From positions 1 to 59,671 of the forward strand of contig JAFGHP010000053.1 in assembly GCA_016930055.1 (NCBI GenBank): a stretch of 59,671 nt of DNA, read 5' to 3'. The notes under the pieces were generated by a model. That model did no database searches, had not been told where the DNA came from, and saw nothing but the letters and a program-made list of their open reading frames with translations. A program made the translations under genes and the position numbers. Below, one piece after another: positions 14,672-42,521 of this stretch; the first letter of the stretch is position 1, and every line of letters begins with the position of its first letter. The stretch comes from Candidatus Bathyarchaeota archaeon (lineage in GTDB: Archaea > Thermoproteota > Bathyarchaeia > TCS64).

Positions 14672-15565
14672 TTAAATAAAGTTAGATAATATTATACCAA
14701 TAGCCATCAATGCAGTCATTGTTAAGGTAAGTTTTACGTTTTCACCCATATAGGGTATAATTTCTGGTACTTTTCCTTGGTTATTAATAACTCCTTTTAC
14801 AGCTTTATACCCTATAGGTAATGTGAAATAGGTTACTAATACTGTAGGGGGCAAAAAATTTTTTATAACTGTTAAAAATACCCACAAATAAGTGCATATA
14901 ATTAGAACTCCGTATATTATTGATGATTTTTTTTTACCAAAAGCAATAACGACATTTCTACGCCCAACAGTCTTATCAGCGTCAATATCTGGAAATTCGT
15001 TTAAAAAAAGTAAAGTACCTACAAGTAAACCTGGTACAACTCCTGCATAGAGACTTGTAAATCCAAATTCCTTTGTTAGGGTCATATATCCCCCTATTGC
15101 TACTAGAGGTCCAAAATTTATTCCTGTAATTAGTTCTCCAAGGTAAAGTTTTGAAAATATTGGTGTATAAAAGTAGATTGTTAAAATAGCTAAAGCTATT
15201 ATTGGTAAAATCATCCAAGTTGAATTGTATGCTAGATAAATACCTATGCCTGAACCTATTGTTAAACAAATTATACCAAACTTGTAGACTGTCTCTGATT
15301 TAAGTTCACCAGATGTTAATATGTTACTTCCTCCACTGAAAGGTGTTTTGATTGTTTTAAAATCTAAACCATTTTTATAATCAAAATATTCGTTTAAAAC
15401 GTTAATACTTATATGAGCTAATGTAACTCCTACAAATCCTAATATCATATTTAGTAAATTAAAGTAGCCGTCAACATATGCTGCAGCTACTCCTATACTA
15501 TAAGTTATAGGTGCTAAGATTAGGAAGGGAGCTCTTATTTGTCTTAGCCAGATTCGATAACTCAT
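14672..15565 (-). CDS. UbiA-family prenyltransferase, MenA-like
   Basis: Integral membrane prenyltransferase of 297 residues with about eight hydrophobic helices. The first Asp-rich motif is NEYFDYKNGLD (residues 58-68). Its two Asp residues are six apart, as in MenA, rather than the four of UbiA/DGGGP synthase. The second motif is FPDIDADKTVGRRN, again MenA-like. MenA attaches a long prenyl chain to dihydroxynaphthoate for menaquinone. The gene is divergent from a long-chain polyprenyl diphosphate synthase (15668), which would supply the donor. The acceptor is inferred; a role in another prenylated quinone or lipid remains possible. Confidence 0.78.
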   Translation of the reverse strand: MSYRIWLRQIRAPFLILAPITYSIGVAAAYVDGYFNLLNMILGFVGVTLAHISINVLNEYFDYKNGLDFKTIKTPFSGGSNILTSGELKSETVYKFGIICLTIGSGIGIYLAYNSTWMILPIIALAILTIYFYTPIFSKLYLGELITGINFGPLVAIGGYMTLTKEFGFTSLYAGVVPGLLVGTLLFLNEFPDIDADKTVGRRNVVIAFGKKKSSIIYGVLIICTYLWVFLTVIKNFLPPTVLVTYFTLPIGYKAVKGVINNQGKVPEIIPYMGENVKLTLTMTALMAIGIILSNFI

Positions 15566-15616
15566 GGGATAAAACAGATATTTAGCATGTTTTTATGTTT
15601 TTCATAAAATCTTTCA

Positions 15617-15625
15617 TATATATAA
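15617..15625 (+). promoter_or_regulatory. TATA box in the divergent prenyltransferase/polyprenyl synthase intergenic region
   Basis: TATATATAAG within the 102-bp divergent spacer, about 45 bases before the TTG start at 15668. It matches the archaeal TATA consensus and could serve the polyprenyl synthase; its near-symmetry might also serve the opposite gene. Confidence 0.45.
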
Positions 15626-15667
15626 GATTGTACGTATAGTCTTAATTCAAATCGGGGTTTAACGGTT

Positions 15668-16627
15668 TTGGCTATAGTTACTGATAAACTAAAAATAATC
15701 ATAGACAGAAGCAATTACGTTGAGGAAGCTCTATCAATAATAGATAAAGAATTCGATGTAGAACTTAGATCCGCAGCTCAATATGCTTTATCAACTGGAG
15801 GTAAACGATTAAGACCAATTCTCTGTATGTTGTCATGCGAGTTAGTTGGTGGTGATTATAAGGAAACAATTCCTGCATTCACATCATTAGAACTAATACA
15901 TAATGCAACTTTAATCCACGATGATATTCTTGATGATGATGTAATACGTAGAGGATACCCCTCTGTCCCTAAGAAATATGGATTAAAAACCGCAGTGTTA
16001 ACAGGTGATGCTTTACTTAGTCTTGGTTTAAGATATGCTTCTATTACTGAAAATACTAAAGTTGTTAAGTTACTAAGTGAAACAAGTCTAAAAATGGTTT
16101 CGGGTATTAAAAAACAACTAAATTTAAACAAGAAAGCTGTTTCTGAGGATGTTATTTTAGAAATTAATTATTTAAAAAGTGGTAGTCTATTCGAAGCAGC
16201 CACGGAACTTGGTGCAATAATTGGTGGTGCTGACGAAGATACTGTAAAATCGTTGGCATATTTTGGGCAATTATTCGGGAATTCCTATCAGATAAAAGAC
16301 GATATAATAGATATTCAAACAAAAAGTTTCGATGAGCCTCGTAACGATTTACTAAACGGTGATTTTACTCTACCCATAATTTATGCATTAGAGTCTAATA
16401 TTCCAAGTGAGACGAAGAAAAAACTCTTCGAAGACTTTAATTCATTAACCCTTCAAAATATTTTAGATATTTTATCAAAAACTTCAAGCATACAAAAATG
16501 TTGGGATAAAATAGATTATTACCTTAGTGATGCTCAAAAAATTCTCGATCAATTCAATAATAGTGAAGCTAAAAATGGCATTCTTTTTTTGTTGAACCAA
16601 TTAAAATCTAAAAATTCATACACTTAA
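15668..16627 (+). CDS. Polyprenyl diphosphate synthase, predicted long-chain type
   Basis: Trans-isoprenyl diphosphate synthase of 319 residues. GGKRLRP is at 44-50, the first Asp-rich motif HDDILDDD at 84-91 and the second YQIKDDIIDIQ near 210. The enzyme condenses IPP onto allylic diphosphates. The residue five before the first Asp motif is Ala80 with Thr81 next to it; short-chain FPP/GGPP synthases usually have an aromatic there, so small residues predict a longer product such as a hexa- to octaprenyl chain. It is divergent from a MenA-like prenyltransferase. The TTG start is supported only by the alignment of the N-terminus. Confidence 0.85.
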   Translation: MAIVTDKLKIIIDRSNYVEEALSIIDKEFDVELRSAAQYALSTGGKRLRPILCMLSCELVGGDYKETIPAFTSLELIHNATLIHDDILDDDVIRRGYPSVPKKYGLKTAVLTGDALLSLGLRYASITENTKVVKLLSETSLKMVSGIKKQLNLNKKAVSEDVILEINYLKSGSLFEAATELGAIIGGADEDTVKSLAYFGQLFGNSYQIKDDIIDIQTKSFDEPRNDLLNGDFTLPIIYALESNIPSETKKKLFEDFNSLTLQNILDILSKTSSIQKCWDKIDYYLSDAQKILDQFNNSEAKNGILFLLNQLKSKNSYT

Positions 16628-16787
16628 AATATTTATATAAATATTTTAATTATTAATATAAATTAATATTAATTAATAGGTAATATTTCGTTTAAAAAAT
16701 GTAACTTTTTTTGACAACAGATATCAATTATTTTACTCTATAATAAATATTATATGATATTATAATAACTATAATAATTGGTATATA

Positions 16788-17213
16788 TTGTCTGTAGTAG
16801 GATTTTCTAGAGCTAACTCTTTGTGGGTTGTTAATTATTTTAATTCTTGTGGATTTATGGAATTATTGCCTTGGGTTGGTTCTGGTTATGATATGGAAAG
16901 ATTTGGTATACTTCCTACAGCCAGTGCAAGGCATGCTGATGTTTTAGTTGTTGCTGGGTATATTACATTAAAAGGTGCTAAACGTGTTAGAAGAATTTAT
17001 GATCAAATGCCTTCACCAAAATATGTTTTAGCGCTTGGTAGCTGTCCAATGACAGGTGGTATGTATTGGGATTCTTATAATACTGTAAAAAACATTGAAG
17101 AAGTTTTACCTGTTGATGTATGGGTTTTGGGTTGTCCTCCAAAACCTGAGAATATTGGTCATGGGATTGTTATGGCTATGAACGCAATTAAAAGTGGTTT
17201 CAAAGGGCATTAG
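16788..17213 (+). CDS. NuoB/[NiFe]-hydrogenase-small-subunit-like protein with one tandem Cys missing
   Basis: First gene of a compact NuoB-C-D-I-like cluster. This 141-residue subunit should hold the N2-type [4Fe-4S] cluster next to the large subunit. GSCPMTGG and LGCPPKPE supply two cysteine ligands. The tandem Cys-Cys of NuoB, or CxxC of group 4 hydrogenases, is reduced to a single Cys21 in NSCGFMEL. So at most three standard cysteine ligands remain. The TTG start has no strong ribosome binding site. Eleven bases separate it from the NuoC-like gene. Confidence 0.82.
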   Translation: MSVVGFSRANSLWVVNYFNSCGFMELLPWVGSGYDMERFGILPTASARHADVLVVAGYITLKGAKRVRRIYDQMPSPKYVLALGSCPMTGGMYWDSYNTVKNIEEVLPVDVWVLGCPPKPENIGHGIVMAMNAIKSGFKGH

Positions 17214-17224
17214 GTGATGATAAA

Positions 17225-17698
17225 TTGAGTTTAGATATGATTTCTTATATTAAAGAAAATCTTAGTGATCTTATTTTATCTATAGAAGAAGATAAAATAA
17301 TAACTTTATTAATTGATAAAAAAAACCTTTTAAAAGTTGCAGCAATTTTAAAAGACGCAGGTTACAACCATTTTTCTGACGTAACAGTTGTTGATTATAT
17401 AGATAATGATGAATTCGAATTAATTTATCATTTATGGTCTCATAATTTAAAAATCAGATTAATGTTAAAAACAAGATTATCAAGACATGATGCGAATGTA
17501 GATACACTCACCTCTGTTTGGAAATCAGCTCATATGCATGAGAGAGAAAACCATGAAATGTTTGGAATACTTTTTAAAGGTCATACTGATTTAAAACCTT
17601 TACTTCTTGAAGATTGGGAAGGTTTACCTCCTTTAAGGAAAGACTTTGATTCACGTAAATTTGTAATTGACAAATTTTATGGAGGTAAACGTATTTGA
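17225..17698 (+). CDS. NuoC/EchD-like subunit
   Basis: A 157-residue NuoC-type 30-kDa subunit homologue. The signature is clear: ANVDTLTSVWKSAHMHERENHEMFG followed by FKGHTDLKPLLLEDWEGLPPLRKDF. NuoC has no cofactor; it packs against NuoD in complex I and group 4 hydrogenases. A GGTGATGA ribosome binding site precedes the TTG start. The stop overlaps the start of the NuoD-like gene (TTGA), so the two are translationally coupled. Confidence 0.87.
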   Translation: MSLDMISYIKENLSDLILSIEEDKIITLLIDKKNLLKVAAILKDAGYNHFSDVTVVDYIDNDEFELIYHLWSHNLKIRLMLKTRLSRHDANVDTLTSVWKSAHMHERENHEMFGILFKGHTDLKPLLLEDWEGLPPLRKDFDSRKFVIDKFYGGKRI

Positions 17699-18795
17699 TT
17701 GATGTACCTTTTTTTACTATACCTTTTGGACCATGTCATCCTTCATCAGGTCATTTTCACGCCTCTTTAAAAGTTGATGGAGAACAAGTAGTGGAAGTAA
17801 TACCAGATCCAGGTTATCTTCATAGAGGGTTTGAAAAATTAATGGAATATAGAACATTTTTACAGAATTCTCCCTTAGTTGACAGAATCTGCATATTAGA
17901 TCCTTTTGCTGCTGAATTAGGTTATGTTAATGCTTCTGAAACTGTTTTGGATATAGAGGTTCCTGAGAGAGGTAAATTTATTAGAACTATAATGGCTGAA
18001 TTGGGTAGAATTTTGAGCCATACTACATGGATAGGTGTAATTTCTTTAGTTCTTGGTCTGGATACTGGGTGTAAAATTGCATTTGGAGATCGAGAATCAA
18101 TAATTAGAATTAATGAAAAAATTACTGGTGGTAGAATATATCCTTGTTATTTCTTACCTGGTGGTGTACGTAGGGATCTCCCAAAAAATTATCATGAATT
18201 GTTTGACGAATTATTTATTCGTCTTGAAAAAAATCTTAATCAATATGATTATCTAATTTTTGGCAATGAATCTTTTCGTGGTCGTTTAGAAAATATTGGT
18301 ATAATGGATGAGAAAGAAGCTATTGATCTCGGAGCAACTGGTCCAAATTTAAGGGCTACTGGATTGAAGACTGATCTCAGAAAAGATGAGCCTTATGAAG
18401 TTTATGAACAACTTAATTTTGATATCCCTGTTCAAACTAAAGGAGATGCTTTTTCTAGGTGTATGTGTAGAAGGCTTGAGATTGAACAAAGTATAAATAT
18501 TATCAAAGAAGCAATACAAAAAATTCCTGATGGAGAATATAAAAATAAAAATTTCAGACCTTTTACTAAAGCAAAAGAAAAAGAAACATATTTCTGCTGT
18601 GAATCAGCTAGAGGCGAACAATGTTATCATATGGTAAGTAACGGTCAAGACAAACCATATAGAGTCAAAGTTAGAGGACCAAGTTTTTCCCATACATTAG
18701 ATGAATTCCCTTATTTAGCTAAAAATTCATATATTGCTGACATTCCTGCGATATATTGGAGTTTGGACCCTTGTCCGGCAGACGTAGATAGGTGA
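17695..18795 (+). CDS. NuoD/[NiFe]-hydrogenase-large-subunit-like protein with CxxD in place of both CxxC motifs
   Basis: A 366-residue large subunit of the NuoD/group 4 hydrogenase family (PFFTIPFGPCHPSSGHFH, GYLHRGFEKLME, GATGPNLRATG). At the two metal-binding sites the motifs are RICILD (Cys66, Asp69) and DPCPAD (Cys360, Asp363). In true [NiFe] hydrogenases both are CxxC. Here the first, terminal Ni-ligand Cys is kept in each pair and the second, bridging Cys is Asp. NuoD of complex I normally keeps neither. The protein ends three residues after Asp363, so no cleavable tail exists. It is probably not a normal H2-activating enzyme; a different metal site or an Ehr-like non-catalytic role is possible. 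Confidence 0.85.
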   Translation: MIDVPFFTIPFGPCHPSSGHFHASLKVDGEQVVEVIPDPGYLHRGFEKLMEYRTFLQNSPLVDRICILDPFAAELGYVNASETVLDIEVPERGKFIRTIMAELGRILSHTTWIGVISLVLGLDTGCKIAFGDRESIIRINEKITGGRIYPCYFLPGGVRRDLPKNYHELFDELFIRLEKNLNQYDYLIFGNESFRGRLENIGIMDEKEAIDLGATGPNLRATGLKTDLRKDEPYEVYEQLNFDIPVQTKGDAFSRCMCRRLEIEQSINIIKEAIQKIPDGEYKNKNFRPFTKAKEKETYFCCESARGEQCYHMVSNGQDKPYRVKVRGPSFSHTLDEFPYLAKNSYIADIPAIYWSLDPCPADVDR

Positions 18796-18800
18796 TTAAA

Positions 18801-19169
18801 ATGCCTTTAAAAGATCTTTTAAAACCTTTTAAAACTTTAAAAAATATTAGCAAAAAACCTATGACCTTAGTTTTTCCAAAAGAATCTTTACCTCCAACAG
18901 AAAATTATAGAGGAAGGCAACTTCTTGATGTAAATAAATGTATAGGCTGTGGAATGTGCTCAAGGGTTTGCCCGAATGATGCCATAAATATGGTTGATTT
19001 TATGAATAAAAAATGTCCTCAGATCCACCTTGGTAAATGTTGCTTTTGTGCTTTATGTGCTGAAAACTGTCCTACAAATGCACTAACGATGACAAATCAA
19101 ATATTTATTGCAGGTTATGATAGATTCTTTGCTGTATATGATCCAGAAAAATTGTCGAAAAATGAATAG
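18801..19169 (+). CDS. NuoI-like 2[4Fe-4S] ferredoxin subunit
   Basis: A 122-residue ferredoxin-type subunit. Clusters are ligated by CIGCGMCSRVCP and CCFCALCAENCP. It should carry electrons from soluble ferredoxin or another donor to the NuoB-like subunit. The ATG at 18801 is preferred: AGGTGA sits five bases upstream, and the GTG at 18792 lies inside that site and overlaps the end of the NuoD-like gene. It is the last gene of the cluster; no NuoH or NuoL membrane subunit follows. Confidence 0.87.
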   Translation: MPLKDLLKPFKTLKNISKKPMTLVFPKESLPPTENYRGRQLLDVNKCIGCGMCSRVCPNDAINMVDFMNKKCPQIHLGKCCFCALCAENCPTNALTMTNQIFIAGYDRFFAVYDPEKLSKNE

Positions 19170-19404
19170 TCAATCTTTAATAATATTTTTAAAATTTTTG
19201 ATACGATAAAAATAAAATATTAATAATTTTATTAAAAATAATTGATTTATATATGAAATTATTATTTAAGAATAAACTAAACTCATTCTTTTTCTAATAA
19301 TTTTATTAAATTTTATCGATTTAATATTTATATCCTTTTAAAATAAATTAACTAATATTAGGACCTATGTTTATTTTTATACAACTTCTGAGGTAAATAT
19401 TGAT

Positions 19405-23967: not shown

Positions 23968-24843
23968 ATGGTGAAACTTCTTTTATTAGGCTTATCTGGT
24001 GACTCTGGTTGCCAGGTAGCTGCAGTTGGATTACATGATAAACTCCTCAAAATATTAATGGGTAATGAGCTAGTTTATGCTCCTACATTAATTGATGTTA
24101 AAGAGATTCCTGAAAAAATTGATGTAGCTATAATTGAGGGTGGTTTAAGAACTAAACATGAAGTTGAGGTAATTAAAAAAATTCGTGCCAACTCAAATAT
24201 TTTGATATCACTTGGTTCATGTGCTTGTTTTGGAGGAATACCTGGATTAGCTAACACGGAGCATGGAAAGGTTCTTTTAAAAAAGATTTACACTGAACAA
24301 AAGGGGACTTCTGTTGGTGTTATCCCTGTAGTCGATGAATTGCTTTCAGGACAATTTCCAATTCATACTGCAGTTCAGGTTGATTATTTAATACCTGGTT
24401 GTCCACCAGAAATTAATGATATTGAATATACTCTAGTTACTTTATTAAATGGTGAAAAACCCACCAAATGTTTAACTGATGTTTGTGAGGATTGTCCCCG
24501 TGAAAGATTAGGGGTTTATTCAAATAAACTAAAACGAATCTTTGAAGAAGTAAGTGATCCCAAACGTTGCTTATTGGAGCAAGGATTTCTTTGTATGGGG
24601 CCTGCAACAATGGGTGGATGTGGAGCTCCTTGCCCTGCTGCTGGTATGCCATGTGATGGATGTAGAGGACCAACAATAAAAAATAGTGATCAAGGATTAA
24701 CAATGCTAGATGCTTTAACTAGTTTAATATCTGAAATGAAAGACAATTTTGATCTTACACAACACATCGGAATCTTATATCGTTATACTTATCCAGATTC
24801 TAATCTAGTAAAAAATTTTATTGGAGGACAAAAAAATGAATGA
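23968..24843 (+). CDS. mvhG: Group 3-type [NiFe]-hydrogenase small subunit, MvhG-like
   Basis: Small subunit carrying Fe-S clusters between the [NiFe] site and HdrA. LGSCACFGGI and IPGCPPEINDI are the proximal-cluster motifs. C-terminal cysteines (CLTDVCEDCP and CMGPATMGGCGAPCP...CDGC) hold further clusters. The N-terminal motif, normally SGCSGC, reads SGDSGC: Asp12 replaces the first proximal-cluster Cys and Cys15 remains. GGAGTTGG precedes the ATG. The stop overlaps the large-subunit start by eight bases. The operon continues into two HdrA-MvhD fusions. Confidence 0.87.
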   Translation: MVKLLLLGLSGDSGCQVAAVGLHDKLLKILMGNELVYAPTLIDVKEIPEKIDVAIIEGGLRTKHEVEVIKKIRANSNILISLGSCACFGGIPGLANTEHGKVLLKKIYTEQKGTSVGVIPVVDELLSGQFPIHTAVQVDYLIPGCPPEINDIEYTLVTLLNGEKPTKCLTDVCEDCPRERLGVYSNKLKRIFEEVSDPKRCLLEQGFLCMGPATMGGCGAPCPAAGMPCDGCRGPTIKNSDQGLTMLDALTSLISEMKDNFDLTQHIGILYRYTYPDSNLVKNFIGGQKNE

Positions 24844-26233
24844 ACAAATAGTGATTAATCCATTAACAAGACTTGAAGGAACTGGAAATGTTAAAATCGA
24901 AGTTGAGTCAGGAAAATTAAAAGATCTTCAACTTACTATTGCCGTAGCGCCTCGTTTTTTTGAGTATCTACTTCTAAATAAACCCGCAGAAGATGCTCCT
25001 AGAATATCAGAACGTATATGTGGTATCTGCTATGTTAACCATCATCTAGTTTCAGTCAAAACAATTGAAGATGCTTGGGGAGTAACAATTCCAGAAGTAG
25101 CTACTTTATTAAGAAGAACATTAAATGCAGCAAGTTTTATCACTAGTCATACATTACATTTAGCTTTTTTAGCTCTTCCTGATCTAATTCCAATTAAGAA
25201 CAGAAATATAGTAGGTGTTGCTGAAACTTTACCAGATATAGCTGATGCAGCACTTAGACTACACGAATATGGTAACAAAGTTGTATCAGAAATTGGGGGG
25301 AGGATCGTTCAAGTAGTAACTGCTGTTCCTGGTGGAATGACAAAAGGTTTGACAGGTGAAATCAGATATAAACTTCTTCGTGAAGGTAGGATGGCTTTAA
25401 ATAATGTAAAAAAATTCGCTGATACAATTTTTAATATTTATGAAAATCGCATAAATGACCCCTATGAATATATGGGTTTAAAGGTCCCATACTTAGGTTT
25501 AGTAAATTCTAAAGGCGAATACGAAATATACGATGGGGATCTTAGAATAAAGGGAAATAATGGCAATATTTTACTACAAATTCCGCCACAAGAATATTAT
25601 AAATATTTTGAAGAAACTTCTAGTGGACATAGCTTTACTAAAATAACTTATCTTAAAGAAATGGGTAAAAAGACTGGTTTAAATCGTGTTGGTCCTTTGG
25701 CAAGGATTAACGTAGTTGATGGTTTTAAATGGCAAGTTTCCACTGAGTATTTAAAAAGTTATTCAAAATTATTTAAAAGGCCTTCTGATGATACTGCAGC
25801 TTATAACCTCGCTAGAACTATTGAACTTGTAGCTTCTGTAGAAGAAGTTCTTGAAGGATTAGCTAATGATATAATTACCTTAGAAAGAACACGAATACCT
25901 GTTAAATCTAAAGAGGGGTGGGGGTCAGCATTTACAGAGGCTCCAAGAGGATTATTACACCATACTTATGAAACAGATGCAAATGGAATAATAAAAAACG
26001 TAAATATCGTTGCACCTACAACTTTTAATCATAAAAGTATTGAAAATAATATTCGCATTTATGCAGAACATAATATTGATGGTTTAATTTCAACAGATAA
26101 ACGATCTGATGTTTTATGGGGTATAGAAAAAATTGTAAGAGCTTATGATCCTTGTTTAAGCTGCAGCGTCCATATGGTTGAAATTGATCTAACAATAGAT
26201 GGCGAAAAGACAATTGACAGGGGGTCTAAATAA
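24836..26233 (+). CDS. mvhA: Group 3-type [NiFe]-hydrogenase large subunit, MvhA-like
   Basis: Catalytic subunit, 465 residues from the ATG at 24836, which has GGAGG seven bases upstream; a TTG at 24821 is less likely. Both metal motifs are intact: RICGICYVNHH (Cys62, Cys65) and DPCLSCSVH (Cys440, Cys443, His446). A 19-residue tail after His446 is probably removed by an endopeptidase during maturation. It oxidises H2 (or evolves it) and passes electrons through MvhG and MvhD to HdrA. It overlaps mvhG upstream and the first HdrA fusion by one base downstream. Confidence 0.92.
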   Translation: MNEQIVINPLTRLEGTGNVKIEVESGKLKDLQLTIAVAPRFFEYLLLNKPAEDAPRISERICGICYVNHHLVSVKTIEDAWGVTIPEVATLLRRTLNAASFITSHTLHLAFLALPDLIPIKNRNIVGVAETLPDIADAALRLHEYGNKVVSEIGGRIVQVVTAVPGGMTKGLTGEIRYKLLREGRMALNNVKKFADTIFNIYENRINDPYEYMGLKVPYLGLVNSKGEYEIYDGDLRIKGNNGNILLQIPPQEYYKYFEETSSGHSFTKITYLKEMGKKTGLNRVGPLARINVVDGFKWQVSTEYLKSYSKLFKRPSDDTAAYNLARTIELVASVEEVLEGLANDIITLERTRIPVKSKEGWGSAFTEAPRGLLHHTYETDANGIIKNVNIVAPTTFNHKSIENNIRIYAEHNIDGLISTDKRSDVLWGIEKIVRAYDPCLSCSVHMVEIDLTIDGEKTIDRGSK

Positions 26234-28563
26234 TGGGATCTTTAGTAATTTTGGACACTTTTGGTGAGACTTTAAAAGAAAAACTTGATGTTGATTCAAT
26301 TGAAGAGTATGCTAAAAAACAAGAAAATGTCTTAGTTACTTATCAAACTCACCGTTTAAATCAAAATATTATGAGTGAGTTAATTAGAGAGGTTCAAGAA
26401 AAAAACGGAATAGACTCTTTAAGCAACGTAATAGTGTTAACCGGTTCAAGAGTCCGTCTGGAAATTCCTTTGAAAAAAGCTATGGAATCTGCTGGTTTGG
26501 ATCCTAATTTATTAGTAATGTCTAATATACGAGAACAAGCTGCTTTAGTTCATAATTTCTCAGAGGCTACTGAAAAAGCAAAAGCTTTGTTAAGAATTGC
26601 TTTAGTTAAAGCAAAGAATGCTACTCCTGTTGAAAGGAAAGTAATTCAAAGATTTAATGAAGTTTTAATTATTGGAGGAGGAGTGGCTGGTATTCATGCT
26701 GCCCTTGACTTAGCTAAACTTGGTTTAATGGTCCATCTTGTTGAAAGAGAACCAACCATTGGTGGCTTAATGCCTCTTCTTGGAAAAACTTTCCCTGAAG
26801 ATACATGTGCTATTTGCATCGGTGGTCCCAAGATGGCGGATGTTGGTAATGAACCTAACATAGAAATATTGGATTATAGCGAAGTTGAAGCAATTATCCG
26901 TTTACCTGTTGGTTATAGAGTGCATATTAAAAGAAAACCGCGTTATATTGATCCAGAAAAATGTGTAGCTTGTGGACAGTGTACTGAACGTTGCCCCGTT
27001 TCTGTTTTAGATGAATATAATGGTGGCATTAGTTTAAGGAAATCTGTTTATTTACCCTATCCTAACGCTGTACCACGGAAACACCTAATTGATGAATCAT
27101 CATGCCTTTACTTGACAAAAGGTAGTTGTCGTTTATGTGAACGTGTTTGTCCTAATCAGGCTATTGATTTTAACCAGAAAGTCACTTACAAAGATCTGTA
27201 TGTAGGCTCTATTATTGTAGCTACTGGTATTGATAATTTCGATCCTAAACCATATCCACGTTTTGGTGCACAATATCCAAATGTAATTGATCAATTTCAA
27301 TTGGCTCGTTATCTTGATGGTGAAGGACCAACTTCAGGCATATTAACTAGACCAAGCGATGGTAAAAAACCTCAAAAAATTGTAATGGTGCAATGCGCTG
27401 GTTCAAGAGATCCTGAACTGAATCCCTATTGTAGTCGATATTGTTGTATGGCTGCTATGAAACATGCTCAAGAAATTAAGGTTAATCAGGGAGGTGATAT
27501 TGAAATCACTATTTTATTCAAAGATATTCGTGCAGGTGGAAAATACTATGAAGAATTCTACAATAGAATCAAAAATTTGGGAATTAACTTTATTTATGGT
27601 AATTTTAAGGAAGTTAAGCAATCTGATGATAAATTATTTGTAGAGTATATTGATGGTCAAGATAAAAATAATGTCTTAGAAAGTGATTTAGTAGTACTTT
27701 CAACTGGTATGATTCCAAGTCGTGGAACTCAAGAATTGGCAGAAAAACTTGGATTAGAAATAGACAAATATGGATTTTTTGATGAAGTAGATATTAAAGT
27801 AGCTAGTACAATTACTAAAAATCCAGGTATTTTTATTGCAGGTGCATGTCACGCCCCAAAAGATATTCCAGAGTCTGTTGCACAAGCAAGTGCAGCAGCA
27901 GCTATGGTAGCCACTTATTTAATGAAAGAAATTGATGCTTCTAAACCTATTCTCACACCAATTGTAGACCCTGAAGTTTGTGGTAGATGTGGTGTTTGTG
28001 TTGATCTATGTCCATATAATGCCATATCTATGCCACCGGAAGGACCTGTTGTAATAGATGACATCTTATGTCAGAGTTGTGGATTATGTATCTCTAGTTG
28101 CCCAACAAGAGCTCTTGATAACTCTAACTTTGGGTTCGATTCACTTATGGATCAAGTTAAAGCAGCCCTTAAAGATAATTCTGAACCTAAAATTATTGGT
28201 TTTGCTTGCAATGATTGTGGCTATAGACTTTTAGATGCTGCAGGTTTTTATAATTCTAAATACTCGTCAGCATTCATACCAATTTATGTTCCATGTATGA
28301 GTTTAGTTAGTTTACGACATATTACTAGTGCATTAGATCTTGGTGCTAAAGGAGTAATGTTGATCGGATGTTTGGAAGATCGGTGTCATTATCATAAAGG
28401 AGTAGATCATGCTGAAACTCAGCTCAAAATTCTAGAAAATATCTATAAATATTTTGGAAGACAGATGCCAATTCGGGTTTTAAAGAGCTGTGGTTCTATG
28501 CTTGAACAATTTTTAACGGAATTGGATTCTCTTACAACAGAAATTTTGGAGGTAAAACAATGA
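26233..28563 (+). CDS. HdrA-MvhD fusion lacking the N-terminal HdrA cluster
   Basis: A 776-residue heterodisulfide-reductase A homologue fused to MvhD. FAD domain begins at VLIIGGGVAGIHAALDL (residue 144), with TCAICIGGPKM following. Ferredoxin clusters lie at CVACGQCTERCP (244-254) and near the end (CGRCGVCVDLCP, CQSCGLCISSCP). The last 120 residues are an MvhD [2Fe-2S] domain (CNDCGYRLLDAAG, GCLEDRCHYHKG). The N-terminal domain has none of the four Cys that ligate a cluster there in canonical HdrA and in the next gene. It probably forms a complex with that paralogue and the Mvh-like hydrogenase. HdrB and HdrC are absent from the window. Confidence 0.88.
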   Translation: MGSLVILDTFGETLKEKLDVDSIEEYAKKQENVLVTYQTHRLNQNIMSELIREVQEKNGIDSLSNVIVLTGSRVRLEIPLKKAMESAGLDPNLLVMSNIREQAALVHNFSEATEKAKALLRIALVKAKNATPVERKVIQRFNEVLIIGGGVAGIHAALDLAKLGLMVHLVEREPTIGGLMPLLGKTFPEDTCAICIGGPKMADVGNEPNIEILDYSEVEAIIRLPVGYRVHIKRKPRYIDPEKCVACGQCTERCPVSVLDEYNGGISLRKSVYLPYPNAVPRKHLIDESSCLYLTKGSCRLCERVCPNQAIDFNQKVTYKDLYVGSIIVATGIDNFDPKPYPRFGAQYPNVIDQFQLARYLDGEGPTSGILTRPSDGKKPQKIVMVQCAGSRDPELNPYCSRYCCMAAMKHAQEIKVNQGGDIEITILFKDIRAGGKYYEEFYNRIKNLGINFIYGNFKEVKQSDDKLFVEYIDGQDKNNVLESDLVVLSTGMIPSRGTQELAEKLGLEIDKYGFFDEVDIKVASTITKNPGIFIAGACHAPKDIPESVAQASAAAAMVATYLMKEIDASKPILTPIVDPEVCGRCGVCVDLCPYNAISMPPEGPVVIDDILCQSCGLCISSCPTRALDNSNFGFDSLMDQVKAALKDNSEPKIIGFACNDCGYRLLDAAGFYNSKYSSAFIPIYVPCMSLVSLRHITSALDLGAKGVMLIGCLEDRCHYHKGVDHAETQLKILENIYKYFGRQMPIRVLKSCGSMLEQFLTELDSLTTEILEVKQ

Positions 28564-30965
28564 GTGATAATAATGAGCTTAGAATAGGTGTTTTCGTATG
28601 CAGATGTGGTTTAAATGTAGCTAAAAGTGTTGATACTACATCATTAGTTGAATATTCTTCAAATTTACTTGGTGTTATTTATGCTGAGGAAATTGAGTTC
28701 GCGTGTAGTGAAATAGGATTAAAACAAATAAGCGAATCTATAAGGGATAACAAAATTAATAGAGTAGTAATAGCTGGATGCTCACCTTGGCTTCATGAAA
28801 AAACATTCCAACGTATGATGGAACGCGTTAAACTCAACCGATATCTTCTTGAAATAGCTAATATCCGTGAACAAGTAGCTTTTCTTTATTCTAACCAGAT
28901 ACTGAAAGCAACTGAGAAAGCTAAATTTATTATAAATGCTGCTGTCGAACGTGTAAAAACATTAGAAGAAATTGGTAGAAAAAGTGTACCAATTCAAAAA
29001 TCTGTGCTAATTATTGGTGGAGGAGTAGCAGGAGTTGAAGCAGCGAAACGTTTAGGTGATTTAGGAATAGAAGTATACCTTATCGAGAAAACACCTTTCA
29101 TTGGTGGGCACGCACTTCAACTTGGTTCTGTTTTCTCTACAGAGGATTGTGGAACATGTGTCTCCCCATGTGAAAATGAACTTCATAGAAGATGCTTTTA
29201 TAGAAACACAATCTCTTTTCACCCTTATATCAACATAATGACATCAACAGAATTAAAAGAAATTAATGGACATATTGGAGACTATAAAGCAACTTTGACT
29301 ATAAAACCACGTGGCGTAAATCAAGAACTTTGTATGGGATGTAATAAATGTGAAGAAGCCTGCCCTGTTGAAATACCTGATCCATTTAATTTTGGTCTGA
29401 GTAAAAGAAAAGCGATTTATATTTTAAGCGATCAAGCTCTGCCTAGAATTTATGCTATAGATCCAGCTACTTGTATAAAATGTAATAAATGTAGTGAAAT
29501 ATGTCCTGTTAACGCTATCGATTTATCAGAAGAAACACGTGAAGTAACAGTTGATGTTGGTGCTGTTTTAGTCACTACTGGTTTTGAATCATTTAATCCA
29601 GAAGGGCTTTATACATATGGAGAAAATCCGGATGTAATAACTCAGTTACAATTAGCTAGAATGCTTGATATGAGTGGTCCCACGAAAGGTAAAGTGATTC
29701 GTCTAAGTGATGGTGTTGAACCTAAAAGAATTGCTATGATTCAATGTGTTGGTTCAAGAGATCCAAAAATCCACGAGTATTGTAGTAAAATTTGTTGTGG
29801 GATTGCTGTAAAACACGCTACAGACATTATGGAGAGGTATCCTGAATCAGGTTTAGCTATTATCAACAAAGATATTCGTTTGACTGGGAAACATTATGAG
29901 GATTATTATTATAGGGCAAAAAATTTGGGGGTGCGTCTTCTACGTGGTGAAGTTCAACAAGTAATAAAAACTGATAATAATGATATCAGACTTGAAATAA
30001 TTGATGAATTTGGTGAACATAAAAATCTTTATGTTGATATGCTAGTACTTTCAACTGGATTAGAACCTTCTAAAGGAACAAAAGAACTAGCAGAAATTCT
30101 TCGTATTCCCTTATCTCCTGACAGCTTTTTTGCTGAACGCGGACCAAAATTAGAACCGTTAGATACTGTTGTAGATGGAATCTTTATTGCTGGGGCATGT
30201 CACGGTCCTAAAGACATACAAGAAAGTATCACTCAAGCTTTAGGTGCAACTAGTCGGATAGCTAGTATCCTAATTAAAGGAGAGATGGAAATAGACCTAG
30301 CTAAAGCTTGGGTTGATGAAGAAAAATGTGTAGGATGTGGAGCATGCGCATCAATATGTCCTTTTAAAGCAATAGAATGGAGTGCTTTCGGTGAACCAAA
30401 AATAATTGAGGCTGCTTGTGAGGGGTGTGGTATATGTGCAGCAGTCTGTCCTGTATCTGCAATGCAATTAAGGCACTATAAAGATGATCAATTGATTCCT
30501 AAAATTAAAGCAATTATGACACCAAAATGGCTTAGTGAAGAAAAGATAGATGAACCTGTTATTATCGCGTTTGCGTGTCAATGGTGTAGCTACGCTGCTG
30601 CTGATGCTGCTGGTAACATGGGTCTTGAATATCCAGAGAATATTCGAATAATCAGAGTGCCATGCACAGGAAGAATTGATGCTCTACACATAATATCAGC
30701 ATTCAAGAATGGGGCTGATGGTGTGATAATTAGTGGATGCTTACCCACACAGTGCAACTACTTAACAGGGAATTTAGAAGCCATTGATCGGGTTGATATA
30801 ATGAAAAAAACTTTGGACGCTCTAAAAATTGGTAGTGAAAGACTTGAAACAATATTTACTTCAGCTTGTATGCCCACTTGGTTAGTAGCTTTATTTACAG
30901 ATTTCACCGAACGGATTAAAAAATTAAATGAAAAACAAAAAATTGTTATCGAACAAATACCTTAA
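28560..30965 (+). CDS. HdrA-MvhD fusion, complete type
   Basis: An 801-residue paralogue of the preceding protein, overlapping it by four bases, with GGAGGT before the ATG. The N-terminal domain keeps the HdrA cysteines (VCRCG at 14-16, Cys49, Cys74). FAD motif IIGGGVAGVEAAKRL starts at 151. DCGTCVSPCENE follows, then ferredoxin motifs CMGCNKCEEACP and CIKCNKCSEICP, a late pair CVGCGACASICP and CEGCGICAAVCP, and a C-terminal MvhD domain (CQWCSYAAADAAG, GCLPTQCNYLTGN). HdrA bifurcates electrons from H2 to ferredoxin and a disulfide in methanogens. The final acceptor here is unknown since HdrBC are not nearby. Confidence 0.9.
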   Translation: MSDNNELRIGVFVCRCGLNVAKSVDTTSLVEYSSNLLGVIYAEEIEFACSEIGLKQISESIRDNKINRVVIAGCSPWLHEKTFQRMMERVKLNRYLLEIANIREQVAFLYSNQILKATEKAKFIINAAVERVKTLEEIGRKSVPIQKSVLIIGGGVAGVEAAKRLGDLGIEVYLIEKTPFIGGHALQLGSVFSTEDCGTCVSPCENELHRRCFYRNTISFHPYINIMTSTELKEINGHIGDYKATLTIKPRGVNQELCMGCNKCEEACPVEIPDPFNFGLSKRKAIYILSDQALPRIYAIDPATCIKCNKCSEICPVNAIDLSEETREVTVDVGAVLVTTGFESFNPEGLYTYGENPDVITQLQLARMLDMSGPTKGKVIRLSDGVEPKRIAMIQCVGSRDPKIHEYCSKICCGIAVKHATDIMERYPESGLAIINKDIRLTGKHYEDYYYRAKNLGVRLLRGEVQQVIKTDNNDIRLEIIDEFGEHKNLYVDMLVLSTGLEPSKGTKELAEILRIPLSPDSFFAERGPKLEPLDTVVDGIFIAGACHGPKDIQESITQALGATSRIASILIKGEMEIDLAKAWVDEEKCVGCGACASICPFKAIEWSAFGEPKIIEAACEGCGICAAVCPVSAMQLRHYKDDQLIPKIKAIMTPKWLSEEKIDEPVIIAFACQWCSYAAADAAGNMGLEYPENIRIIRVPCTGRIDALHIISAFKNGADGVIISGCLPTQCNYLTGNLEAIDRVDIMKKTLDALKIGSERLETIFTSACMPTWLVALFTDFTERIKKLNEKQKIVIEQIP

Positions 30966-31944: not shown

Positions 31945-33348
31945 TTATTGTAAAATGCCTTTTTTTGATAATATATATTGATGCATTGATTTTGCAGCTA
32001 GTTTTCCAGCTCCCATTGCACTTATTACTGTTGCAGCTCCACTTACTACATCTCCCCCAGCAAATACTCCGGGAATCTTTGTCTCCATAGAATCTTCATT
32101 TACTATTATTGTTCCATGTCTCGTCGTTTCCAAACCTTGGGTAGTCTGTTGTATTATTGGATTTGGTGACTGTCCAATAGCAATTATTGCAGTGTCTAAT
32201 TCTATTGTAAATTCGCTTCCAGGTATTGGTTCTGGGCGTCTTCTTCCACTTGAATCTGGTTCACTAAGTTTCATGTGGATGCATTCTACTTTCTCTAAAA
32301 ATCCTCTTGAATTCCCAATAAATCTAATTGGATTTGTTAAAAACTCGAAATGTATTCCTTCTTCCTCAGCGTTTTCTACTTCTTCGATTCTTGCAGGCAT
32401 TTCATCTCTTCCACGCCTATAAATAATGTTTGATTGTTCTGCTCCAAGTCTCAACGCACAACGAGCAGAGTCCATAGCAACATTGCCTGCTCCTATTACT
32501 CCTACGCGTTTACCGACTCTTATAGGAGTATCATATTCAGGGAATTTGTATGCTTTCATTAAGTTAGTTCTTATGAGAAATTCATTAGCAGAATAGACAC
32601 CTTTCAAATTTTCTCCTGGAATTATCAAAAAATTTGGTAAACCTGCTCCAGAGCCAATAAATATTGCGTCATATCCATCATCAAAAAGTTCTTGTATAGT
32701 AGCTAATCTACCGATGGTTGAATCTAATTTAATTTCAACACCTAAGCTGTTAACATACTCCACTTCATATTGTACGATTTCTTTGGGAAGCCTGAATTCA
32801 GGGATTCCGTACATAAGTACCCCACCAGCAGCGTGGAGACTTTCAAAAATTGTTACTTTATGCCCGAGTTTAGCTAAATCCGCAGCTACAGTTAAACCAG
32901 CTGGTCCTGATCCGATTACTGCAACTCTTCCACCTTTAAATTGGATTTCCTGTTTTTCAATTTTTGAATATTTTCTTTCCCAATCTGAAGCAAATCTTTC
33001 TAGTCTCCCAATAGCTATTGGGTCTCCTCTAATTCCAAGAACACAATTTTTTTGGCATTGATCTTCTTGAGGACAAACTCTTCCACATACTGCAGGTAAA
33101 GAATTTTTTTCTTTAATCTTTTTAGCTGCTGAAATATAATTTCCTTCTTTAATTAATTTTATAAACTCTGGTATTGGTACTTCAACAGGGCATCCTTTGA
33201 CACATTGTGGTTTAGGGCAATTTAAACATCTTGAAGCTTCTTCTAAAGCCATCTCAGCATTGTAACCAATAGCAACCTCATCAAAATTTTTAATTCTTTC
33301 ATTTGGCTCCTGCCTTGGCATATCAACTTGGCTTTTTATTGCAGTCAT
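31945..33348 (-). CDS. nfnB: NfnB / GltD-like FAD-NAD(P)H oxidoreductase large subunit
   Basis: A 467-residue subunit of NADH-dependent ferredoxin:NADP+ oxidoreductase (also called sulfide dehydrogenase subunit alpha). N-terminal Fe-S motifs are CLNCPKPQCVKGCP and CGRVCPQEDQCQKNC. FAD motif VIGSGPAGLTVAADLAKLG, NADP motif VIGAGNVAMDSARCALRLGA with IIYRRGRDEMPA, and IPGVFAGGDVVSGAATV follow. Nfn bifurcates electrons between NADPH, NADH and ferredoxin. NfnA ends two bases upstream, so the pair is one operon. It can alternatively act as a glutamate synthase-like subunit, but no GltB is present. Confidence 0.9.
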   Translation of the reverse strand: MTAIKSQVDMPRQEPNERIKNFDEVAIGYNAEMALEEASRCLNCPKPQCVKGCPVEVPIPEFIKLIKEGNYISAAKKIKEKNSLPAVCGRVCPQEDQCQKNCVLGIRGDPIAIGRLERFASDWERKYSKIEKQEIQFKGGRVAVIGSGPAGLTVAADLAKLGHKVTIFESLHAAGGVLMYGIPEFRLPKEIVQYEVEYVNSLGVEIKLDSTIGRLATIQELFDDGYDAIFIGSGAGLPNFLIIPGENLKGVYSANEFLIRTNLMKAYKFPEYDTPIRVGKRVGVIGAGNVAMDSARCALRLGAEQSNIIYRRGRDEMPARIEEVENAEEEGIHFEFLTNPIRFIGNSRGFLEKVECIHMKLSEPDSSGRRRPEPIPGSEFTIELDTAIIAIGQSPNPIIQQTTQGLETTRHGTIIVNEDSMETKIPGVFAGGDVVSGAATVISAMGAGKLAAKSMHQYILSKKGILQ

Positions 33349-33350
33349 TT

Positions 33351-34166
33351 TTATACTCCTTCATAAAGAACCATAGCTATTTTCTCATTGGGGTTATAGA
33401 ACCTCATACGAGAAATTAATTCATCAAAATCTACTTGATGCCCATCAAAATCTGGCCCATGCACACAAGCAAACCTAGTAGTATTCCCTACAGTGACTCT
33501 GCAAGCTCCACACATTCCAGTTCCATCAACCATAATTGGAAATAAGTTCACTGTAGTAGGAATATTATATGATTTAGTGTATTCAGAAACTATTTTCTGC
33601 ATGCTAGTTGGACCCATAGTAAAAACATGGTCAAACCTTTTTTGCTGTAAAATTTCTTTCAGGAATTCTATTCCTTGGCGACCCTCTGAACCATCATCAG
33701 TAGCTACATAAAAATCATCTGAATATTTTCTAGCTTCATCAATTAATATTAAACGGTCTTTACTTCTTGCACCAATTATTGTTGTAATATTATTTCCAGA
33801 ACCCTTTAGAACTTTCATTTGAAATAAAAGTGCACCAACCATTACACCCCCACCAACGCACAAAATATTACCATAATCTTTTGTATCTGTCGCGTTACCT
33901 AGAGGACCTGCGAGATTAAGAATCGATTCGCCTTCATTTAATTTACCTAATAATATACTAGATTTTCCCACCTCAGCAAAAATTAATTGAATGGTTCCTT
34001 CATCCTTATTTGAATTAGATATAGTGATAGGAAACCTTTCCCCTTTTTCATGAATTCTAATAATTACAAATTGTCCTGGTTTAGTTTTTTTGGCAACAGC
34101 AGGCGCTTTAACTTCAATTAACTTAATATTAGGTGAAAGGGCTTCCTTATGAACGATTTCGTACAT
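33351..34166 (-). CDS. nfnA: NfnA / ferredoxin-NADP reductase-like small subunit
   Basis: A 271-residue PyrK/SudB-type flavoprotein. KKTKPGQFVIIRIHEKGERFPITISN is the FAD-binding FNR motif, and ILCVGGGVMVGALLFQM the NAD-binding region. A C-terminal [2Fe-2S] motif (GMCGACRVTVGNTTRFACVHGP) matches NfnA. Together with NfnB it forms the bifurcating transhydrogenase NfnAB, which balances NADH, NADPH and reduced ferredoxin. It is the first gene of the two-gene operon; glutamate dehydrogenase, an NAD(P)-linked enzyme, precedes it in the same direction. Confidence 0.9.
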   Translation of the reverse strand: MYEIVHKEALSPNIKLIEVKAPAVAKKTKPGQFVIIRIHEKGERFPITISNSNKDEGTIQLIFAEVGKSSILLGKLNEGESILNLAGPLGNATDTKDYGNILCVGGGVMVGALLFQMKVLKGSGNNITTIIGARSKDRLILIDEARKYSDDFYVATDDGSEGRQGIEFLKEILQQKRFDHVFTMGPTSMQKIVSEYTKSYNIPTTVNLFPIMVDGTGMCGACRVTVGNTTRFACVHGPDFDGHQVDFDELISRMRFYNPNEKIAMVLYEGV

Positions 34167-36027: not shown

Positions 36028-37944
36028 ATGGATCAAGAGCTACTTATTGCATTAACTATAGGCGCTCCAACCCTTGCTGGTTTAGGGTGCTTAATATTAA
36101 ATGATAAAATTGCTCGTAAAGTTATCGTAAGTTTATCAGCAATTTTGCTTATCGGTTCCTCTTTTATATTATTTAATGGTGGTGGTTTTAGTTATGAACC
36201 TAACTCAATTTTAGATACATTAGTCTTATTTTTTGATTTAATGTTATTAGTTTATTTTTTTTATGTTGGTATAAAATTTAAAAATATTTTAGTTATCGGG
36301 CTTTCTCTTTTACAATTATTACCTGTATTATATTTTGAATTTATACTTCATGGAGTTGAAGGAACCCCAACTTTCCTTATTGATGAACTTAGTCTTTTAA
36401 TGAGTCTTATTATTAGTATTGTTGGTTCTGTAATAGTAATTTATGGTTTAAATTATATGGATGAGCATGAAGAGCATTTGCATATTCAGAAAAGTCGTCA
36501 AAACCGCTTTTTCTTTTTTATGTTGCTTCTTCTTGGTGCAATGCATGGATTAGTTTTTTCAAATAATCTTTATTGGTTGTATTTCTTTTGGGAAATTACA
36601 ACTCTTTGTAGTTATGAATTAATAAGACATGATGGAACTGAAATTGCTATTAAAAATGGTATTACTGCGTTATGGATGAATTTAATTGGTGGAGTAGCTT
36701 TCGTCTTAACCTTGTTTATTGGTTATTATTATTTTAACTCTATAGCAATAGACGAAATTTTAAAAATGTATCAGAGTCCAGTTGTTTTATTATTTTTAGC
36801 GGTATTATCCTTCGCTGCATTCACGAAATCTGCGCAGTTTCCCTTTAATAGTTGGTTACAAGGTGCTATGGTTGCGCCTACTCCCGTTTCTGCATTACTT
36901 CATTCTAGCACCATGGTTAATGCGGGTATTTATTTAATCTTAAGAATTGCACCAGCATTAAATAATTCAGCACTTAGTTATAGTATTGCACTTGTTGGTG
37001 CTTTTACTTTTTTAACTAGTGCGATTTTAGCTCTTAATGAAAGAGTATCGAAAGGAATCTTAGCTTATTCAACAATTGGTAATTTAGGATTAATCTTCTT
37101 ATGTATAGGAATAAATACTCCTCTGAGTTATGCTTCTGCTTTAGCTCTTTTAATTTTTCACTCTGTATCGAAGGGTTTACTTTTCTTATGTGCTGGTGTT
37201 GTGGAAAATAGAGTTCATAGTAGATTAATTGAAGATTGGGAAGGATTAATCAGGAGACTTCCAGCTACGAGTATAATAATGATAACTGCGATGTTGAGCA
37301 TGTTCTTGCCTCCTTTTGGGATGCTTCTGGGTAAATGGGTCGCAATAGAAGCTCTTTCATCTTCATATTATATTTCATCGATGCTCATTATTCTTTTATT
37401 AGTCCTTGGAAGTGCTGCAACTTCCGTTTATTATATTAAATGGTTAAGTTACCTTACTGTATTACCATTAGATGGTAAAAACTTTGAAAGTGAAAAAATC
37501 CCATGGTCTTATGTTATTTCCTTGTTAACTTTATTTGGTTTAATAATAATAATGGGTACAGGCGTTTCTTCAGTATTTAATCTTTTAATATTACCAACTT
37601 TACCTTCAAATTATTATACAAATATCGATGCTAGTATAATTAATTTAAATACTGGTATTGGAAGTTTTGTGACTTATCCACTATGGTTAATAATTGCAGC
37701 AATGGTTTTCTTTGGTTACACATTATCTAAAAGAAAAGGGGGAACAGTTAAACCACCTTATTTAAGCGGAGAAAATGTAGTGGACGATCCTACTGTTTTC
37801 CATACTACCGCTGATGGAATAGCTAAAATTGAAGTATCTGCTCAATTTTTTGAAAACGAATTTAGTAATAACCGTTTATTGGTTTTGTCAAAAATTTTAG
37901 GATCAATAATTATTATGTTACTGTTTTTCGCGGTGATGTTGTGA
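36028..37944 (+). CDS. echA: EchA-like antiporter-type membrane subunit (NuoL/MrpA family)
   Basis: First gene of the membrane hydrogenase operon: 638 residues with about 14-16 hydrophobic helices. The proton-channel residues typical of NuoL/MrpD are visible: Glu in YFFWEITTLCSYE and Lys in FAAFTKSAQFPFNSWLQGAMVAPTPVSALLHSSTMV. It should pump H+ or Na+ when electrons flow through the peripheral arm. Only one antiporter-type subunit is encoded, as in Ech rather than Mbh, which carries Mrp-like extras. The stop overlaps the next gene (TGATG). Confidence 0.9.
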   Translation: MDQELLIALTIGAPTLAGLGCLILNDKIARKVIVSLSAILLIGSSFILFNGGGFSYEPNSILDTLVLFFDLMLLVYFFYVGIKFKNILVIGLSLLQLLPVLYFEFILHGVEGTPTFLIDELSLLMSLIISIVGSVIVIYGLNYMDEHEEHLHIQKSRQNRFFFFMLLLLGAMHGLVFSNNLYWLYFFWEITTLCSYELIRHDGTEIAIKNGITALWMNLIGGVAFVLTLFIGYYYFNSIAIDEILKMYQSPVVLLFLAVLSFAAFTKSAQFPFNSWLQGAMVAPTPVSALLHSSTMVNAGIYLILRIAPALNNSALSYSIALVGAFTFLTSAILALNERVSKGILAYSTIGNLGLIFLCIGINTPLSYASALALLIFHSVSKGLLFLCAGVVENRVHSRLIEDWEGLIRRLPATSIIMITAMLSMFLPPFGMLLGKWVAIEALSSSYYISSMLIILLLVLGSAATSVYYIKWLSYLTVLPLDGKNFESEKIPWSYVISLLTLFGLIIIMGTGVSSVFNLLILPTLPSNYYTNIDASIINLNTGIGSFVTYPLWLIIAAMVFFGYTLSKRKGGTVKPPYLSGENVVDDPTVFHTTADGIAKIEVSAQFFENEFSNNRLLVLSKILGSIIIMLLFFAVML

Positions 37945-38822
37945 TGTTAGAAAATATATCTCTTAATACAATATTCTCAATAGTTCTAATCTTCTGTGCA
38001 CCAATAATTGGAGGATTTTTAATGGGAATTGATAGAAAATTGACTGCAAGAATGCAAAGTAGAATGGGTCCTCCAATAATTCAACCTTTCTACGATGTGA
38101 TTAAATTATGGGGAAAGGAACCCTTTATATCAAGTACGTTACAACCAATTTTGGCTTTCTGTTATTTTGGTTTTAGTTTAACTTCTTTTGCCCTTTTAGC
38201 TTTGGGTCAAGATCTACTTCTTATAATCTTTACTTTAGGTATAGCTGATTCGTGTTTGATTATTGCTAGTTTAAATTCAAAGTCACCTTATAGTGTTCTT
38301 GGCGGTAAAAGAGAGTTATTAAGTATTATGAGTTACGAACCTGTACTTTTACTCACTGCTATTAGTATTTATTATGTTACAGGAAGTTTTATGGTTGCTA
38401 GAATATTTTATCTAAGTTATCCCTTAATTTCTTATTTGCCCTTAGTTTTTATTGCTTTAATACCCGTACTTGTTATTGACTTAAAAAAATCTCCTTATGA
38501 TGTATCCGCTTCTGGACATGCACATCAGGAACTTGTCCGAGGTGTATTCACGGAGTTTAGTGGTTATTCACTTGCATTAATAGAGTTAGGTCATTGGACT
38601 AAAGTTGTTATGATGTTAAGTTTGGTTAGTCTTTTCTGGGCTACAAATCTAATAATAGGTATATGTTTAGCTTTAGTTTTATTCTTTATTGTATTAGTTA
38701 TTGATAATGTTTATCCAAGGCTTGACTGGAAATCTATGTTAAAAACGACTTGGTCTATTGGAATTATTTTGATTATAGCTAATATTGTTGGATTAATTGC
38801 CCGGGTGGTGATGCATATATGA
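37944..38822 (+). CDS. echB: EchB-like membrane subunit (NuoH family)
   Basis: A 292-residue membrane protein with about eight helices. MGIDRKLTARMQSRMGPP is the NuoH signature after the first helix, and FYDVIKLWGKEPF follows it. AHQELVRGVFTEFSGYSLALIELGHW carries the acidic residues that line the quinone/proton path in this family. It connects the hydrogenase arm to EchA. I prefer the ATG at 37944, which has GGTGA seven bases upstream; a GTG just before it is also in frame. Overlaps both neighbours. Confidence 0.9.
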   Translation: MLENISLNTIFSIVLIFCAPIIGGFLMGIDRKLTARMQSRMGPPIIQPFYDVIKLWGKEPFISSTLQPILAFCYFGFSLTSFALLALGQDLLLIIFTLGIADSCLIIASLNSKSPYSVLGGKRELLSIMSYEPVLLLTAISIYYVTGSFMVARIFYLSYPLISYLPLVFIALIPVLVIDLKKSPYDVSASGHAHQELVRGVFTEFSGYSLALIELGHWTKVVMMLSLVSLFWATNLIIGICLALVLFFIVLVIDNVYPRLDWKSMLKTTWSIGIILIIANIVGLIARVVMHI

Positions 38823-39259: not shown

Positions 39260-39260
39260 A

Positions 39261-42508: not shown

Positions 42509-42521
42509 TTTTTTTTATTTT
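42509..42521 (+). terminator. Poly-T run after the Ech-like operon
   Basis: TTTTTTTTATTTTC starts directly after the echF stop and overlaps the 3' end of the convergent flavoprotein gene. It fits an archaeal oligo-T terminator. Confidence 0.5.

Follow-up and report, generated by a model that had tools for sequence, protein, structure and literature searches.

The window analyzed here, the whole stretch of 59,671 nucleotides from a Candidatus Bathyarchaeota archaeon, encodes a NuoD-like protein in which each of the two CxxC motifs typical of [NiFe] hydrogenases has become CxxD, raising the question of what such a subunit does. A sequence-only reading of this DNA had proposed that it either forms a new metal site or represents a state between hydrogenase and complex I.

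The NuoD-like subunit and its operon

The gene (17695..18795, + strand, start codon TTG) encodes a NuoD/MbsL-like 49-kDa subunit of 366 aa (Pfam PF00346, E 4e-76), and the opposite strand has stops throughout. Translation places the L1-type motif C66-I-L-D69 at 17890..17901 and the L2-type motif C360-P-A-D363 at 18772..18783, both on the + strand and exactly as the earlier reading had described them. When we aligned the protein to solved structures, CILD and CPAD fell in register with RMCGIC / DPCLSC of MbhL and RVCGIC / DPCYSC of HycE. The first cysteine of each pair in [NiFe] hydrogenases is a terminal ligand and the second is a bridging ligand. Because the motifs align on L1 and L2, the terminal-ligand positions are filled by C66 and C360 and the bridging ones by D69 and D363, in agreement with the claim that the terminal cysteines are retained and both bridging cysteines are aspartate. 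The CxxC in L1 and L2 that is the hallmark of group 4 [NiFe] hydrogenases is therefore absent, and the protein ends at DVDR366, without the maturation-protease tail associated with nickel maturation. An AlphaFold model displayed a normal fold (pLDDT 90), with pLDDT <50 at residues 363-366. The best solved match by sequence was MbsL (6u8y_L, E 5.5e-86), from the membrane-bound sulfane reductase (MBS) of P. furiosus. Foldseek comparison of the model with this chain gave a TM score of 0.94 and 41% identity, the highest identity among the matches listed; the complex I chains listed gave TM scores of 0.90-0.95, and both fold and subunit homology are common to the window NuoD and complex I (Nqo/Nuo, NDUFS2).

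This gene comes third in a run of four close-packed genes (16788-19169; assigned by Pfam and NCBIfam), NuoBCDI. All on the + strand, they encode a NuoB/MbsJ-like small subunit of 141 aa with the motif NSCG (16788..17213; Pfam PF01058; best PDB match 6u8y_J), a NuoC/MbsK-like 30-kDa subunit of 157 aa (17225..17698; Pfam PF00329; best PDB match 6u8y_K), the NuoD-like protein, and a NuoI/MbsN-like 2x[4Fe-4S] subunit of 125 aa (18792..19169; Fer4 matches and alignment with MbsN, 6u8y_N). NuoC and NuoD overlap by 4 bases, as do NuoD and NuoI, and the operon is bounded by AT-rich intergenic gaps of 160 bp upstream (16628..16787) and 235 bp downstream (19170..19404). Among the open reading frames around the operon in the window, no membrane subunit gene adjoins NuoBCDI. 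A scan for sigma-70 promoters and terminators gave nothing above shuffled sequences, a result of little meaning for an archaeon. MBS (6u8y) was the top complex I-superfamily match in the PDB for all four products; for NuoI, a polyferredoxin-type chain scored slightly above 6u8y_N, which was the best among complex I-type chains. NuoI also retains the N-terminal LLKPFKTLKNISKKPMTLVFP segment, as its alignment with MbsN (6u8y_N) begins at residue 8 and covers LLKPFKTLKNISKKPMTLVFP.

Relation to sulfane reductase, hydrogenase, and complex I

The motifs of MbsL, RICVPEP and DNCPPDIDR (C85-VP-E88 and C385-PP-D388), align with C66/D69 and C360/D363. In the MBS paper, a stepwise loss of the four cysteines was argued from the retention of only C85 and C385 in MbsL (PMC7684303). 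Complex I usually lacks all four, as the sequence-only reading had stated. Its idea of an evolutionary intermediate between hydrogenase and complex I therefore stands, but the intermediate is not new, since MbsL carries the equivalent pattern and has already been interpreted in this way.

The same paper identifies the catalytic site of MBS as the proximal cluster, p-[4Fe-4S], which has three cysteine ligands (MbsJ C28, C93, and C123) and one free iron (PMC7684303). The window NuoB has three cysteines only, C21 (16848-16850), C86 (17043-17045), and C116 (17133-17135), which align with MbsJ C28, C93, and C123, while F18 stands at the position of MbsJ C25. Where this NuoB has NSCG, complex I has an adjacent cysteine pair and hydrogenases have CxxC. 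The quinone residues H38 and Y87 of Nqo4 are absent from the window NuoD, the histidine being deleted and Ile67 standing at the Tyr87 position, and the alignment also lacks MbhL E21, the residue of proton reduction; MBS is likewise without H38/Y87 and E21. Since NuoD of the ammonia-oxidizer type has also lost H38 and Y87, their absence alone is not sufficient to exclude a quinone.

In total, the NuoBCDI operon shares with MBS/Mbx all four hydrophilic subunits, the three-cysteine proximal cluster, and the lack of quinone and nickel hallmarks, and differs from MBS in having Asp rather than Glu as the first acid and in missing the non-ligating MbsJ C25. MBH, a group 4 [NiFe] hydrogenase (6cfw), has homologous J, K, L, and N subunits, and several near relatives of the window NuoD (such as L048 and L077) lie in MBH gene order; unlike MBH, however, the NuoBCDI operon has no CxxC pairs, no E21, no four-cysteine proximal site, and no C-terminal tail. 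Complex I, unlike the window NuoD, lacks both terminal cysteines and the first acid and carries H38/Y87.

We collected 80 loci from genome contigs and added further genomes, giving 137 sequences including references, and built a FastTree phylogeny from 364 columns, in which support inside the clade is uneven and the exact branching order is unreliable. The window NuoD grouped with L033 and L034 (support of 0.999) and then with a family of fused NuoI-NuoB-NuoD (I-B-D) proteins from Bathyarchaeota, Hecatellales, Baldrarchaeota, and Asgard metagenome-assembled genomes (MAGs) (0.83). A clade of 83 holds both the window NuoD and MbsL (0.89), with the window in a separate, moderately supported sister subclade rather than beside MbsL itself; some nodes around the window clade have modest support (0.83-0.89). 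The next sister is the ammonia-oxidizer-type NuoD, canonical complex I lies outside (nodes of 0.96-0.99), and the hydrogenases are basal.

The near relatives take three forms: separate NuoBCDI genes, NuoC with a fused I-B-D protein, and MBS proper (L081, L082, L092). Those with separate genes have a three-cysteine NuoB (NSCG), and many of them possess a full Mrp-type arm in MBH gene order (L048, L058, L059, L077); separate NuoBCDI genes without an arm occur in Heimdallarchaeia (L056, L064, L069, L071) and Thermoplasmata (L043, L051), as well as at L063 and L068. The fused proteins, of ~665 aa and accompanied by a separate NuoC, have a four-cysteine NuoB (L037, L044, L046, L067, and others), and because they form the closest sister group, the cluster type changes within the clade. 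Most I-B-D fusions have no membrane subunits nearby (L036, L037, L044, L046, L053, L055, L061, L067, L070, L073, L074, L079). In a further set of loci (L048, L058, L059, L066, L077, L078), a CxxE/CPAD large subunit and a three-cysteine small subunit occur in operons that follow the MBH gene order and have one MrpD-type antiporter; judged by sequence, these have MBH architecture with a predicted nickel-free MBS-type site.

The best match among 31 further genomes from the window's order had only 39% identity, and the closest sequences came from MAGs with distant labels, L033 (82%) from one labeled Aenigmatarchaeota and L034 (58%) from one labeled Aminicenantes. Although MAG labels can be wrong, this distribution suggests lateral spread of the window-type NuoD.

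From the motif identity, the three-cysteine set, the lost nickel, quinone, and proton hallmarks, the operon structure, the conservation, and the clade, all read from the sequences themselves, NuoBCDI is very probably a nickel-free MBS-type core. Our preferred reading, which we hold with somewhat more confidence than doubt, is that it forms the hydrophilic core of an MBS-type enzyme that is fed by ferredoxin and reduces an S-S bond at the free iron of the three-cysteine NuoB cluster; the S-S bond as substrate, taken on its own, is close to evenly balanced, leaning toward acceptance. Electrons, probably donated by reduced ferredoxin, would flow through the two [4Fe-4S] clusters of NuoI to the proximal [4Fe-4S] cluster in NuoB, which would be held by three cysteine ligands only and whose free iron would reduce a polysulfide or an organic disulfide. 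The reaction site would be the pocket at the NuoB-NuoD interface that houses nickel-iron in hydrogenases. Of the former [NiFe] site, the outer ligands C66 and C360 would then remain, with D69 and D363 in place of the bridging ligands and no nickel bound. The grouping of the window NuoD with MbsL and the MBS relatives rather than with canonical complex I argues for the MBS-type reading. Against it stand the absence of a sulfur-specific gene from the NuoBCDI operon, the modest support of some nodes around the window clade, the four-cysteine NuoB of the closest sister group, and the MenA-like and polyprenyl synthase genes just upstream.

The membrane arm and possible redox partners

Unlike MBS, in which two antiporter-like subunits, a NuoH-type anchor, and Mrp subunits are encoded together with the core, the window operon has no membrane genes, and the module is therefore either soluble or docked on an arm encoded elsewhere. 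Ehr complexes are hydrogenase-like members of group 4 without Ni/Fe ligands and with Mrp-like membrane subunits (Marreiros 2013, as cited in PMC6349859); the missing nickel ligands are common to Ehr and the window operon, whereas the Mrp-like subunits of Ehr have no counterpart in the operon. The residue pattern is thus known from MBS, and the novelty lies in an MBS-type core that stands as an arm-less, self-contained NuoBCDI operon, of which we found no description in the open-licence papers searched.

According to the MBS paper, dimethyl trisulfide is reduced by C-MBS, a soluble MBS subcomplex purified from the supernatant of centrifugation at 100,000 g (PMC7684303), which indicates that the core can be active on its own. 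The retention of the MbsN N-terminal stretch in NuoI leans the other way, toward docking. We regard a soluble rather than a docked module as possible, at a little short of even, and the broader proposal that stand-alone MBS-type NuoBCDI sets act across several archaeal groups as soluble, cytoplasmic disulfide/sulfane reductases that depend on ferredoxin, with a complex I-superfamily core and no arm at all, as more tentative still.

Alternatively, NuoBCDI might be a complex I-like peripheral arm that docks in trans, for example on a NuoJKMLMN set encoded on contig C62 or on the arms of the hydrogenases, and serves as an energy-converting oxidoreductase that passes electrons from ferredoxin to a quinone or to an unknown acceptor. 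The N-terminal segment that NuoI shares with membrane-docked MbsN is consistent with this, as are close NuoD relatives in operons with full Mrp-type arms and MBH gene order. Other genomes offer possible parallels: G308 has an Mrp-type arm with NuoH and without NuoBCDI of its own (L147), and in G334 the one NuoD and the one arm are on separate contigs. Directly upstream of NuoBCDI, at 14672-16627, lie divergent genes for a MenA-like prenyltransferase (- strand) and a polyprenyl synthase (+ strand), neighbors that could hint at a quinone. We nevertheless consider this complex I-like reading unlikely, given that H38 and Y87 are missing and that NuoB has three, not four, cluster cysteines. The genome of the window (1.79 Mb, 94% complete, 111 contigs) also has NuoH only in two hydrogenase operons (C26, C68), and we found no NuoA in it at this level of completeness.

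Contig C62 (L120, 9645-17109) ends with the complex I-type arm NuoJKMLMN, located beside an A-type ATPase. We set it aside as the obvious partner of NuoBCDI, since in the same genus/family (L131, L132) NuoJKMLMN is part of a complete Hfo-like hydrogenase, which carries intact CxxC and CNAC motifs. In these relatives the hydrogenase is sometimes encoded by two divergent operons, and with C62 cut at this point, the missing Hfo half may simply be unassembled. Hfo, the Fpo-like hydrogenase of Bathyarchaeia, has intact CxxC and 11 subunits (PMC7886697); its subunits are homologous to those of the window operon and relatives in the window's genus carry a similar cluster, but the window core is without CxxC. 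In the complete genome of Heimdallarchaeum endolithica, the only NuoH lies in an operon with HypE/HypF-like genes that faces a hydrogenase core, ~1.8 Mb from the MBS-type core. Arm-less operons of this kind raise the question of whether a complex I core works as a soluble enzyme or whether one proton-pumping arm is shared by a hydrogenase and a nickel-free core.

A soluble redox module with a non-sulfur partner, such as HdrABC or an electron-transfer flavoprotein, in which the free-iron cluster would serve another disulfide or an electron relay, seems less probable again. At L043 the gene order is EtfB-EtfA-NuoBCDI-HdrA followed by further Hdr-like genes, a hint that the partner in this lineage is Hdr or an electron-transfer flavoprotein; the fused loci L046, L053, and L061 have HdrA-like, formate-dehydrogenase-like, and FrhB-like genes in their vicinity; and 5 kb downstream of NuoBCDI the window itself contains a separate Mvh/Hdr set. 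The neighbors differ between clades, however, and the four genes of the window stand alone between intergenic gaps.

This downstream set (23968-30965, + strand) starts with VhuG/VhuA-like (Mvh) hydrogenase genes, whose products have Vhu models as best NCBIfam matches, and continues with two long HdrA-like genes. The window also contains a genuine group 4 [NiFe] hydrogenase operon (36028-42508, + strand) encoding a NuoL-like protein, NuoH, a small subunit, a NuoC-GltD-type NAD(P)H flavoprotein fusion (604 aa), a large subunit, and a ferredoxin. The large subunit (40972-42171) has intact RICGIC / DPCISC motifs and residues that continue past the second. An NfnAB-like pair, made up of a GltD-type and a sulfide/dihydroorotate dehydrogenase-like subunit, is encoded at 31945-34166 (- strand), and a protein of the CoA-disulfide reductase family at 42515-43885 (- strand). 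These last genes recall the ferredoxin/NADPH/sulfur set of Pyrococcus and fit a ferredoxin/NADPH/thiol metabolism, which proves nothing about NuoBCDI.

Conservation of the cysteines and acids

The sequence-only reading had named freely varying aspartates among orthologues as the sign of simple decay. They do not vary freely: the combination C, D/E, C, D (CxxD/E...CxxD) is kept in 52 sequences from archaea and bacteria, at 82% to about 40% identity, with Glu as the first acid in 34 (including MbsL) and Asp in 18. Among the 120 scoreable non-hydrogenase homologues, both cysteines are kept in 53 and both are absent from 66, only the first being present in the remaining one (Fisher p 1e-33, a value overstated by kinship among the sequences). 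Several separate joint losses on the tree indicate that the pairing is not due to chance. Acids occupy both bridging positions in 116 of the 120; the four exceptions are complex I proper (T. thermophilus, fly, and cyanobacterial) and L023. In these alignments, the cysteines are kept or lost as a pair, with the acids as the more general feature.

This pattern bears on the proposal that C66, D69, C360, and D363 form a new C2D2 mononuclear metal site. Conservation of the four positions in 52 sequences and the joint fate of the cysteines would be expected of such a site, but many homologues that have lost both cysteines still carry the acids (such as N..E / V..E and V..D / W..E), including the fused L061 (N..D / A..D), indicating that the four residues are not retained as a single ligand set. 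More directly, the nearest studied relative provides counter-evidence: MbsL has the equivalent residues, a C85A/C385A double mutant reduced dimethyl trisulfide as well as the wild type, catalysis is assigned to p-[4Fe-4S], and the sections of the MBS paper drawn on here report no metal at C85/C385 (PMC7684303). We therefore find the new metal site unsupported and very unlikely.

Simple decay of a [NiFe] large subunit, suggested by the bridging cysteines that hydrogenases have and this subunit lacks, can be dismissed given the intact open reading frames, conservation across many lineages, and purifying selection, which is clearly indicated by the comparison of the window NuoD with its closest orthologue, L033 (82% identity, dN of 0.12 with saturated synonymous sites, all four residues kept).

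The distribution suggests an order of loss in which the bridging cysteines became acidic first and the terminal cysteines were lost later, jointly, on separate branches. The in-between state of hydrogenase and complex I, represented until now by a single studied enzyme, MBS, is thereby extended to a broad family. Loci L011-L032, a few other types apart, encode the ammonia-oxidizer-type NuoD, which has lost both cysteines and H38/Y87 and kept the acids (V..D / W..E). The NuoD of L023 (G218) carries the canonical quinone-site His and Tyr alongside both terminal cysteines (LCYVS / DPCLGEIDR) and may be a better candidate than the window NuoD for an intermediate between hydrogenase and complex I.
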